A DNA stretch of 31,904 nucleotides, taken from IMG/VR virus record IMGVR_UViG_3300049448_000132, positions 1-31,904 of that record. One strand, 5' to 3'. Numbering within the stretch: the stretch's first letter is position 1; each line of letters begins with the position of its first letter. The notes beneath the pieces were generated by a model. That model saw only the letters and a program-made list of their open reading frames with translations, was not told the origin of the DNA and searched no databases. The DNA is from a virus. Made by a program: the position numbers and the translations under genes. Positions 7,210 through 18,393 of the stretch are shown here, one piece after another.

Positions 7210-7526
7210 TGCGGCCCGCCGACCACATGATCCTCGACGCGGGCGATCGCGATCTCCATGGCGCGAATCGTCTCTTCACCTTCGGTGACGAGCCTCATGA
7301 AAGTCGACATGTGGGCTTCGGCCCGCGCCCGGGCCTCGACGATGGTCTTCTCCAGCGAATCCAGCTGCTCGCGCATTCCCGTTACGCGCGACATGGCGTG
7401 GGCATGGACATCGGCCATGGCGGCCGCGGCCCGGTTGATGACCTGGTCCGCTACTGCCAATGATTGTGTTGACGGCTCGGTCAGTTCGTTGGCCAGTTTC
7501 TTCAATGTTTCGGATTGTTCGTTCAT
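7206..7526 (-). CDS. Coiled-coil hypothetical protein
   Basis: A 106-aa protein. The ATG at 7526 is chosen because AAGGAG sits 6 nt upstream and it overlaps the regulator stop as ATGA; a frame open to 7565 is less likely. It is strongly helical, with long charged heptads (RVTGMREQLDSLEKTIVEAR) and many Ala residues. No catalytic motif is visible. It could oligomerise and act as a partner of the regulator, which is speculative. Confidence 0.75.
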   Translation of the reverse strand: MNEQSETLKKLANELTEPSTQSLAVADQVINRAAAAMADVHAHAMSRVTGMREQLDSLEKTIVEARARAEAHMSTFMRLVTEGEETIRAMEIAIARVEDHVVGGPQ

Positions 7527-7753
7527 CTTGATCTCCTTCTTTTGGGTGGGACTCGCATCGGCCATAGGTAGTCGGGCGCGTCGGCGCCGATATTCATAAG
7601 TTCGTCCTTGATCAGACGGTAAGTATCTGCCGGGAATTGCTTATCTGCCCGCCAGTTATAGACGCCGTTGATCGATGTGCCGGTCAGCTCCGACATCGCG
7701 TCGATGCCGCCCAGCGCGGTGATCACTTCCGCCGTGGTTTTGAGATGTGTCAT
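7523..7753 (-). CDS. Cro/YdaS-like helix-turn-helix transcriptional regulator
   Basis: A 76-aa protein covering a single compact DNA-binding domain. The pattern TTAEVITALGGIDAMSELTG then SINGVYNWRADKQFPADTY matches the Cro/YdaS-type layout: a helix with xALGG, a turn helix, and a recognition helix ending in a conserved NWR. A short tail follows. It is the first gene of a six-gene minus-strand operon and is divergent from the secreted-protein gene at 7861. The 107-nt gap between them holds a perfect inverted repeat, a likely operator. It is probably a repressor of its own operon and perhaps of the gene at 7861. Confidence 0.85.
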   Translation of the reverse strand: MTHLKTTAEVITALGGIDAMSELTGTSINGVYNWRADKQFPADTYRLIKDELMNIGADAPDYLWPMRVPPKRRRSR

Positions 7754-7836: not shown

Positions 7837-7860
7837 CTACCAAACCTAGGAGTTACGCCT

Positions 7861-8502
7861 ATGAGACGTTTTCTTGTGGCGGCCGCGCTGGTCTGCGCCG
7901 CCGCCACGGCTTCCCGTGCTGACATCATCCTCGACACCACAGGTATCGGCGGTACTGGCACCAACGTCACCTTCGAGAGTGTTGCCAGCTCCAACCTGAT
8001 CCTTGGCCGCCTCAACGGTCAGAACAACGAAGTCGTTCGCTTCCGCGATCTGTCCGGCAACGGTGCCTTCACGGGTGCTGCCAACGGCAACGACATCAAG
8101 ATCTTCAACACCAGCGATCTTGATATTTCGGTATTCAACAGCCTCAACCTTACTCAGCTGGGTGTCACCAGGGATGTCTTTTCCATCGTTGGGACCGGCA
8201 CTGTGCTGTTTCATGTGACGGCGCTGGAGAGCAACGGCACTTTCCAGAACTTTAATTTCAGCAGCGTTCTGACGAACGGCCAGAACGGCTTCGACTTCAA
8301 GGCCATCAACGGCGAGAAGATCTGGGACATGGATCTTGTCGTAGCCGGTGGTAGCATTACTGACTTCGAACATTTCCGCATCGACGTGGCTCCGGCCGCG
8401 GCGGTGCCGTTGCCGATCGCAGGCGCCGGGTTGCCAGGTTTAGTAGCTGCGTTGTGTGGATTAGTAGCGTTGCGTCAGCGGCGTCGGCGTAGTGTAGCCT
8501 GA
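7861..8502 (+). CDS. Secreted protein with signal peptide and VPLP/PEP-CTERM-like anchor
   Basis: A 213-aa exported protein. The ATG at 7861 is chosen because AGGAG lies 8 nt upstream and a signal peptide starts directly: MRRFLVAAALVCAAATASRA with probable cleavage after SRA. The mature part is rich in Asn, Gly, Asp and Thr, looks beta-rich, and has no known catalytic motif. The C-terminus is a tripartite sorting signal: VPLP near residue 181, a hydrophobic helix (AGAGLPGLVAALCGLVAL), then RQRRRR. This matches the VPLPA/PEP-CTERM type signals handled by exosortase-like systems in Gram-negative bacteria. Such tails are typical of host surface proteins, not phage proteins, so this is likely a moron that changes the cell surface of the host. 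It stands alone between a divergent operator and a terminator. Confidence 0.85.
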   Translation: MRRFLVAAALVCAAATASRADIILDTTGIGGTGTNVTFESVASSNLILGRLNGQNNEVVRFRDLSGNGAFTGAANGNDIKIFNTSDLDISVFNSLNLTQLGVTRDVFSIVGTGTVLFHVTALESNGTFQNFNFSSVLTNGQNGFDFKAINGEKIWDMDLVVAGGSITDFEHFRIDVAPAAAVPLPIAGAGLPGLVAALCGLVALRQRRRRSVA

Positions 8503-8527
8503 TCGTACTGGCTGATCGGGTGAACGG

Positions 8528-8566
8528 GGCCGCGTCACGGCGGGTGTCGGGCGCGGCCTTTAATTT
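8528..8566 (+). terminator. Intrinsic terminator after the secreted-protein gene
   Basis: GGCCGCG (8528-8534) pairs with CGCGGCC (8552-8558) around a 17-nt loop, followed directly by TTTAATTT. It lies 25 nt after the stop of the gene at 7861-8502. The loop is longer than usual and the T-tract is interrupted, so strength is uncertain. Confidence 0.65.
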
Positions 8567-8635
8567 ATGCCAACCAGAACATGGCCATATGTCACCCGCA
8601 GTGAATGGCTGGCGCAGCAGAAAGCGAGAAGGCAC

Positions 8636-16716: not shown

Positions 16717-17361
16717 TTAACCCTGCGTCGTAGTGATGTTGCCTTGGCCACGGCCACTGGCAGCGGCGAGCTGACGGTTGGCTTCGGACTGACCGACCGC
16801 CGGAGCTATTGCCGAGCCCAGGCCGATCGCGATCGGCTTGAACATATCACCAAGCGCGCTGACGTTCGGCTGCTGCAATTGGGCGTTGGCCGCGGAGTTC
16901 GCCGCGGTGTTGGCGGCGACGGTCGGGTCTTCGGTGGCGTACAGCTGGTTATAAGCCTGCTGTTGCTGGGCCGCGATCGACTGACGCAAAGCCGCCGTAT
17001 CAGTGTCGGCTTTGGCGCGTAAGCCTGCTTCATTGACGCCCTGCTGCTGGGTCAACTTGTTCTGCACGAAGCCGGCGGCGCCGGAACGTAACAGTCCAGC
17101 TCGAGCCAGGTCATTCTCGGCGTTACGTTTTGCTTCAGTGTACTGGGTACTCAGCTGCGGCAGCGTGTAGTCCAGCTCGGCGTTCTTGTACTTGTCGTAG
17201 AACGGATCGCCGAAGTTGTCGTTACCAAAGATGTTATCGATCGCGGTCTTGCCCTGGTTGAGCCGGGCCTGGCGCGCGTTCTCTTTGTCTTTGGCTTCCT
17301 GTGCCTGCTGCATCTGCAGCTGCACGGCTTGGTTATTTGATGGTCCGCTTTTGCCACCCAT
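16717..17361 (-). CDS. Glutamine-rich virion protein with MGGK start
   Basis: A 214-aa protein starting MGGKSGPSNNQ, fourth in a run of MGGK proteins. Residues 10-40 are Gln/Lys/Glu-rich helix (LQMQQAQEAKDKENARQARL), followed by FGNDNFGDPFYDKYKNAELDY and a long helical region up to about 130 (RNAENDLARAGLLRSGAAGF). The C-terminus is Ala/Gly-rich with GLGSAIAPAVGQ. The composition and place beside a gp14-like protein suggest an internal virion protein. Its start shares the junction GTGTGACATGGG with its upstream neighbours. Confidence 0.7.
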   Translation of the reverse strand: MGGKSGPSNNQAVQLQMQQAQEAKDKENARQARLNQGKTAIDNIFGNDNFGDPFYDKYKNAELDYTLPQLSTQYTEAKRNAENDLARAGLLRSGAAGFVQNKLTQQQGVNEAGLRAKADTDTAALRQSIAAQQQQAYNQLYATEDPTVAANTAANSAANAQLQQPNVSALGDMFKPIAIGLGSAIAPAVGQSEANRQLAAASGRGQGNITTTQG

Positions 17362-17362
17362 G

Positions 17363-17701
17363 TCACACCTGTGTATTTGTTGTATTGGGATCTTTTCCGT
17401 AATCTTCCCAGAACTTCGGCGGCGTCAGTACAGCCTTCTTGGCGACGTCTCCGGTGGTGTCCTTGGTCGTCTCAGTGCCGGACACGCCTTCGGCCGGCGC
17501 AGTAACACTGGTTACGGTATCCTGCGGCTTCGCAGTGGCGGCCGCGGCGGCTTTCTTGACGTCGATGTTCGACTGAATCTTGGACATGTCGACCGGCGCC
17601 GTGTTGGCGAGCGTCTTCGTTGCTTCTTCGACTGTCGAATTGCCCGACTTGTCGACGGGTTGCTGGTAGTAGTTGCCGCCGCCGCCACCCTTACCGCCCA
17701 T
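17363..17701 (-). CDS. MGGK-family small virion-region protein 3
   Basis: A 112-aa protein, start MGGKGGGGGNYYQQ, end NTQV. The middle is Ala/Thr/Lys-rich and looks disordered. Near the C-terminus, ETTKDTTGDVAKKAV resembles TKDPMKTTGDLLAQS of the gene before it, so the two may be paralogues. It is separated by 1 nt from the neighbours on both sides. The function is unknown. Confidence 0.65.
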   Translation of the reverse strand: MGGKGGGGGNYYQQPVDKSGNSTVEEATKTLANTAPVDMSKIQSNIDVKKAAAAATAKPQDTVTSVTAPAEGVSGTETTKDTTGDVAKKAVLTPPKFWEDYGKDPNTTNTQV

Positions 17702-17702
17702 G

Positions 17703-17996
17703 TCACACCTGCCCTGTTAGGTTGGTGGGATCCGCAACGGATTGCGCCAGCAAGTCGCCGGTTGTTTTCATGGGATCCTTTGTCACTTCCACCTGGCTTA
17801 TCGCCTCGCCTGGCGAGATCGGCGAAATATCAGGCGGCGGTGCCGCCGGCGGCGGTGCGTCTGGTGGCGGCGGTGGCGGCGGTGGCGGCGGTGGCGGCGG
17901 CGCTTCGGGTGCAGCTGGCAGCGGCACGTCAGGCGCCGGCGGCGGCGGGGCGGTCTCCGTCTGCATCTGCTGATTGCTTCTGCCTTTGCCGCCCAC
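17703..17996 (-). CDS. MGGK-family polyproline protein 2
   Basis: A 97-aa protein from a GTG start, MGGKGRSNQQMQTE, ending LTGQV. Residues about 18-55 are nearly all Pro and Ala, with a run of 13 prolines encoded by a repeating 9-nt pattern near 17863-17901. Residues 56-85 (DISPISPGEAISQVEV and TTGDLLAQSVA) match the C-terminal part of protein 1. The protein is probably extended and disordered. Its role in the virion is unknown. Confidence 0.65.
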   Translation of the reverse strand: MGGKGRSNQQMQTETAPPPPAPDVPLPAAPEAPPPPPPPPPPPPPDAPPPAAPPPDISPISPGEAISQVEVTKDPMKTTGDLLAQSVADPTNLTGQV

Positions 17997-17997
17997 G

Positions 17998-18393
17998 TCA
18001 CACCTGCCCTTTGTTTACCGTTAGGCTGTCGCCGGACGATTGCTTTAGTTGGTCTTGCCACATCGCTGGCGCGATCGATTGCGCCATGAGGTTGCCGGTC
18101 GGTTGTTTGGTGTCCGGTGTGGTCACCGCGTGACCTGGCGATATCGGTGAAACATTAGAGGTCGGTGGCGGCGCCGCGGGCGTGGCCGGCTGTTCTATCG
18201 CTGGCGTTTCCGCTGCGGCCGGAGCGGCCATAGGCGCGGCTTCGGGTGTGGGTGTGGGCGGGTCAGCAGCCGCCGGCCAGTTCGCTGGCAGTGGCTGGCC
18301 AAAGAAGGCGTGCATGACATTCTGGTTCGCTGCCGTGACGGCCTCATCCTGGGTCATCATCTGGCCGTTGCTGCCGGGAGATTTTCCACCCAT
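17998..18393 (-). CDS. MGGK-family protein 1
   Basis: A 131-aa protein, start MGGKSPGSNGQMMTQDEAVT, end NKGQV. The ATG overlaps the acetyltransferase stop (TGATG). The centre is Pro/Ala-rich. The shared module NVSPISPGHAVTT and TGNLMAQSIA near residues 80-108 aligns with DISPISPGEAIS and TGDLLAQSVA in protein 2. I know of no family with this signature. It is likely a virion-associated or assembly protein by position. Confidence 0.65.
   Translation of the reverse strand: MGGKSPGSNGQMMTQDEAVTAANQNVMHAFFGQPLPANWPAAADPPTPTPEAAPMAAPAAAETPAIEQPATPAAPPPTSNVSPISPGHAVTTPDTKQPTGNLMAQSIAPAMWQDQLKQSSGDSLTVNKGQV

Follow-up and report, generated by a model that had tools for sequence, protein, structure and literature searches.

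A secreted phage protein with a PEP-CTERM-like C-terminal signal belongs to a family whose tails and ectodomains appear to be exchanged as cassettes

Exosortase/PEP-CTERM systems of Gram-negative bacteria, in which exosortase (EpsH, PF09721) sorts proteins that carry PEP-CTERM signals, are predicted to have many substrates, and few functions are known for them. Proteins described by the PEPxxWA-CTERM (NF035944) and PEP-CTERM (TIGR02595, PF07589) models share a signal peptide, a C-terminal motif, a helix and a basic cluster. To our knowledge, and in the literature searched, which took in few subscription journals, no phage moron uses a C-terminal host sorting signal, phage PEP-CTERM proteins are not described, and the strings GAGLPGL and VPGPI/VxGAG are absent. 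Described phage moron or superinfection-exclusion genes include sieA and gtrABC of P22 (PMC10883804). The gene analysed here resembles such morons: it is accessory, has a terminator of its own, varies among closely related phages and is proposed to change the envelope. Its product has the parts of a PEP-CTERM substrate, yet its motif, VPLPIAGAGLPG, is scored by no model, the gene lies on a phage, and the phage records contain no exosortase.

The gene was found on IMG/VR record IMGVR_UViG_3300049448_000132, from a virus of soil bacteria; positions 1 to 31,904 of the record are called the window below. That the window is a phage is seen from PHROGs matches to its polymerase, helicase, terminase, portal, capsid and tail-fibre genes; among cultured phages, Microcystis phage Mae-Yong1326-1 and Rhizobium phage RHph_N65 come closest in terminase and capsid. 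The CTERM gene (Table 1) is syntenic with the terminase, portal and capsid genes, bearing out the original prediction that it is phage-borne, and it occupies the same locus, between the same flanking phage genes and beside the HTH gene, in G001, G005, G010, G013, L017 and L018. The family is also present on phages with another terminase type, phrog_2 (G003, G009, G014, G016, G017, G018 and G020), for which there is no match in the window lineage. Like a moron, the CTERM gene is an accessory gene amid conserved phage genes and has a terminator of its own; the terminator hairpin folds at -30 kcal/mol (z -2.9, computed for 8515-8572) and is also present after many relatives' genes. A promoter for the gene was looked for in the window and was not identified. 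The tails in this family are bacterial in style, and such genes exist on a Microvirga plasmid, which could suggest that misassembly or misclassification has placed a bacterial gene on a contig taken for viral; this reading is nonetheless extremely improbable, given that the locus recurs between the same phage genes in all six relatives listed above, and that two pattern-limited scans of 84,980 GTDB species genomes found no relative. Contamination is ruled out by the recurring synteny. Elsewhere in the window (16717-18393, minus strand), four consecutive ORFs have products that share the N-terminus MGGK and continue as low-complexity Gln/Ala/Pro-rich sequence.

Table 1. Features of the CTERM locus in the window, and of the RNA leader found upstream of related genes
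Feature	Position	Strand	Basis
CTERM gene, secreted phage protein with predicted sorting-signal tag	7861..8502	+	213 aa ORF; relatives
Ribosome-binding site AGGAG	7848..7852	+	read directly; eight bases 5' of ATG
Sec-type signal peptide, residues 1-20 (SRA, then DI)	7861..7920	+	inspection of the sequence; retained in alignment A1
Ectodomain, residues 21-180, predicted carbohydrate-binding-module / jelly-roll type of beta-sandwich	7921..8400	+	model, fold search, dN/dS
Putative sorting motif VPLPIAGAGLPG, residues 182-193	8404..8439	+	sequence, alignment
C-terminal transmembrane helix, approximately residues 191-204	8431..8472	+	model, family C-termini, shuffles
Basic cluster RQRRRR, residues 205-210	8473..8490	+	sequence
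Intrinsic-terminator-like hairpin, then TTTAATTT	8526..8560	+	folding of 8515-8572
Small HTH DNA-binding regulator, divergent	7523..7753	-	conserved neighbour within window lineage
Perfect 16-bp inverted repeat, 14-nt loop	7767..7812	.	between CTERM gene and divergent HTH gene
Predicted RNA leader: two hairpins and palindromic ribosome-binding site	L031:6587-6675, L114:3089-3177, L035:5774-5864, L293:3431-3520, others		

The signal peptide, VPLP letters, transmembrane helix and arginine cluster at 7861-8502 are all present, exactly as had been claimed. The signal peptide was recognised by a hydrophobicity scan and conservation, with a cleavage context, read by eye, of MRRFLVAAALVCAAATASRA followed by DI. 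Residues 182-213 read VPLPIAGAGLPG-LVAALCGLVAL-RQRRRRSVA, which is the motif, transmembrane helix and basic cluster architecture of PEP-CTERM and PEPxxWA-CTERM substrates. AlphaFold models an N-terminal helix, a twelve-stranded beta-sandwich (21-176), a disordered segment (180-190) and a C-terminal helix (191-212). When the window protein was shuffled 200,000 times, 0.26% of shuffles had a hydrophobic C-terminal stretch with four or more basic residues after it, and 0.11% had VPxP. A direct search found relatives at 37 viral loci, and a profile search found 108, of which 79 distinct loci were kept; none was found in cultured phages or plasmids, and a comparison of 69 family members with PHROGs gave two weak matches only and no functional family. 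The window tail is not a product of chance, since all 60 of the distinct full-length C-termini of relatives, every one on a viral contig, end in a helix and basic residues.

The motif that precedes the helix varies among these 60 C-termini: it is VPxPxxGxGxPG in 38, PExxTW in 17, a fusion of both (VPGPVAGVPEPxTW) in three, VPETSSW in one and VPLPA-like in one. PEPxxWA-CTERM (NF035944) matches 12 of 24 aligned relatives, and two of them, L029 (40.9 bits) and L015 (36.1 bits), exceed its curated 35-bit cut-off. The window protein itself matches none of NF035944, TIGR02595 and PF07589, so that the notion of a PEP-CTERM-like signal is upheld through its relatives and not through membership of any curated model. 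The reading of VPLP as a VPLPA-CTERM signal (TIGR03370) did not hold: the letters do stand ahead of the helix, but the model has no match in the window and the motif runs on as IAGAGLPG, which rules out the label. A distant relative, L128, scores 23.1 bits against TIGR03370 (cut-off 25.35). The window motif belongs instead to a VPGPxxGAGLPG class that is modelled in no library searched. Because homologues keep the helix and basic cluster while their motifs are swapped, and some of them pass PEPxxWA-CTERM, homology points to the window tail as a PEP-CTERM-like sorting signal. GlyGly-CTERM was defined by similar reasoning, from signals swapped within families of homologues (PMC3237569).

The tail could instead be an unprocessed anchor, making the product a single-pass inner-membrane protein that faces the periplasm and could interfere there with DNA entry or with some other step. 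Consistent with this, neither the window tail nor most VPGP-type tails match a CTERM model. A plain anchor, however, would not keep a 12-residue motif, as at least 97 distinct tails do (part of that motif being set by the search pattern), and would not be exchanged with PEPxxWA-CTERM among homologous proteins. We therefore regard it as unlikely, and treat the tail as a probable sorting signal in what follows.

Such a signal had been thought unexpected in a phage genome; it is not rare there. Viral contigs were scanned with VPGP-GAGLPG and VPEPxTWAM patterns, and the matches listed give lower bounds, counting genes on viral contigs with phage part and host flank taken together. For the DNA pattern VPxPxxGAGxPGx, whose motif statistics are in part fixed by the pattern itself and whose counts are likewise lower bounds, nearly all listed matches with an ORF are the C-termini of signal-peptide proteins of roughly 180-270 aa. 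The VPGPxxGAGLPG tail is carried by at least 14 ectodomain clusters. Among the matches listed, the tailed genes often stand two or three in tandem on one contig, and tandem pairs or triplets with different ectodomains and the same tail are seen at L123:4898-7608, L096:9962-11280, L127:1404-3138, L134:9692-11130 and L189:4499-5781. Two bacterial PEP-CTERM families, FxDxF (NF038126) and cistern (NF033947), are among the tailed viral-contig proteins. In these cases phage and bacterial ectodomains are homologous over their whole length, but the phage versions have VPGPxxGAGLPG in place of the PEP tail; one such cistern protein, on a terminase-bearing phage contig, scores 131 bits against a cut-off of 60. 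The window protein belongs to neither family. Among the VPEPxTWAM matches listed, 24 of 74 proteins are homologous to VPGP-tailed ones, and the matches include contigs with non-metagenome identifiers, which are taken to be isolate proviruses.

VPGPxxGAGLPG-type tails are probably common in Bradyrhizobium. A plasmid of Microvirga ossetica (Hyphomicrobiales) encodes three or more, and probably four, secreted proteins whose ends read VPGPIAGAGLPFLLIAGGYVLVRRYR or similar, so tails of this type also exist in bacteria, and Hyphomicrobiales are a lead as the candidate host group of the window phage. The genes at L267:7023-7743 and L268:10673-10990 of this plasmid encode small secreted Gly-rich proteins with VPGPIAGAGLPFL tails, and one VPGPIAGAGLPFL-tail gene is adjoined by an ORF that looks VanZ-like by eye (L259:4002-4346). 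The BLAST low-complexity filter masks many tails, leaving 37 of 127 without a local match; a plasmid search with the L003 tail was probably uninformative through such masking and was repeated with an unmasked tail. On one Polymorphobacter plasmid (L044, NZ_CP080242.1), a PEPxxWA-type tail query matched at 32 places, and the matches that were viewed are annotated PEPxxWA-CTERM proteins.

What, then, do these tails carry? No sequence match to the window protein was found in the PDB. Fold searches with the modelled ectodomain gave beta-sandwiches that bind carbohydrate as matches (Foldseek E 1e-4; Z up to 8.1, with CBM29 at 7.7). The predicted fold may be CBM29/CBM4-like, a common arrangement for which these middling matches show no function. 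The model of a second ectodomain family is beta-rich and has no PDB match with E below 0.001. The ectodomain is evidently under purifying selection, with pairwise dN/dS of 0.015-0.24, and its history appears to differ from that of the tail. Near-identical ectodomains carry different tails in the window and L003 (ectodomain dN 0.006, tail dN 0.30) and in L035 and L037 (0.005 and 0.345), indicating that tails have been exchanged; between the window and L007 the values are 0.167 for the ectodomain and 0.051 for the tail. Phage G029 is closely related to the window phage, its capsid, portal and terminase proteins being about 99% identical, yet at the same locus it encodes an unrelated ectodomain. 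DNA similarity at this locus is 84% over 7862-7929 (signal peptide) and 89% over 8401-8533 (tail and 3' flank), with none between. Judged from these comparisons, tails and ectodomains move separately, in the manner of cassettes.

The same data bear on whether the product is a virion, lysis or entry protein (for example spanin-like) that is secreted by happenstance. The CTERM gene does adjoin the late genes (9358 onward), and viral fold matches of its ectodomain include tail-fibre proteins. Yet its transcription runs against that of the late genes, it occurs on phages with two terminase types in differing neighbourhoods, and its ectodomain has been replaced wholesale in G029, all of which makes such a role highly improbable.

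We consider it probable that the CTERM gene is a moron for surface conversion, its product being sorted by a putative host enzyme, perhaps for superinfection exclusion. The host Sec system would export the protein, and the C-terminal helix would hold it in the inner membrane, its basic residues on the cytoplasmic side and VPLPIAGAGLPG on the periplasmic side. VPLPIAGAGLPG may then be recognised by a sorting enzyme of the host, either an exosortase or another of that kind, which would remove the helix, and the freed carbohydrate-binding-like beta-sandwich would be delivered to the cell surface or to exopolysaccharide. In that position it could mask or change receptors, most likely excluding other phages, and superinfection exclusion is perhaps the preferred candidate purpose. 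A phage-borne exosortase was sought and rejected, with none in 84 records (81 viral contigs, as 31 + 50, two cultured phages and one Polymorphobacter plasmid). Surface conversion fits the cassette variability, the independent transcription unit and the proximity to integrases. A tyrosine integrase is present in 13 of 61 records, and in 10 of these 13 a CTERM gene lies within 3.2 kb of it (chance about 5e-5 under random placement, a post hoc figure from records that are not fully independent). Against surface conversion, the window tail matches no CTERM model, the fold matches are middling, and no tyrosine integrase was detected in the window phage or the near-complete relatives G005 and G029.

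The displayed protein might instead serve host fitness, aiding exopolysaccharide binding, aggregation or biofilm formation of the infected cell or lysogen. Bacterial PEP-CTERM proteins have been linked to exopolysaccharide and floc formation (PMC1569441; PMC9012009), and the predicted carbohydrate-binding-like fold agrees with such a role. The variety of ectodomains at one phage locus, however, fits an arms race over receptors or exclusion at least as well. This alternative, which overlaps with surface conversion, is clearly the less probable of the two. Under surface conversion, our results suggest that phages borrow the sorting machinery of their hosts to remodel the host surface, and repeated tagging of different secreted proteins by phages would mark that surface as their site of action. 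Phage CTERM proteins could also serve as small, swappable substrates for testing sorting, and the VPGPxxGAGLPG tail, as an unmodelled signal class, could be used to look for its enzyme by co-occurrence in bacterial genomes.

More tentatively, and with rather less confidence than we place in surface conversion, soil phages may share a modular display system in which interchangeable ectodomains are flanked by a shared signal peptide and an undescribed VPGPxxGAGLPG-CTERM signal, are sorted by a putative host enzyme, and in one branch are controlled by a new structured RNA leader. Many PExxTW-tailed genes are preceded by GGTGC-ATTCC-GCACC. Across all 2.9 million viral contigs, 22 stretches contain the 17-mer GCGGTGCATTCCGCACC, and 18 of these stretches precede a signal-peptide protein that starts 21-32 nt downstream; 17 of the 18 genes are complete and have a CTERM tail, and one is cut by the locus end. 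The other stretches comprise two before signal-peptide-like starts at a locus end and two that are unrelated. The genes led by GCGGTGCATTCCGCACC span about six ectodomain families and include one VPGP-type tail (L409). In alignment A5 of the leaders, 97.3% of cells are paired and there are 31 double changes, compared with 8.3 in shuffles, with sliding controls far lower; the leader is thus predicted to be a structured, strongly covarying RNA. A possible outer stem, ACCGC/GCGGT, shows no covariation in its outermost pairs and would overlap the second hairpin, so the two stems would be mutually exclusive, as in a switch. A covariance model found further leaders before CTERM genes in L118, L013, L111, L032 and L285. 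The leader stands almost only directly 5' of phage genes whose products combine a signal peptide with a PExxTW-type tail, their ectodomains being unrelated, and could help to reveal when phages express these proteins. No Rfam family matched the window or five relatives at the gathering threshold, and the covariance model has no match in the window, where the upstream region has the perfect inverted repeat in place of the leader. This repeat, a possible operator, was not seen upstream of the genes of the relatives examined; in relatives from the window lineage, it appears to be replaced by a small ORF that overlaps the start of the CTERM gene.
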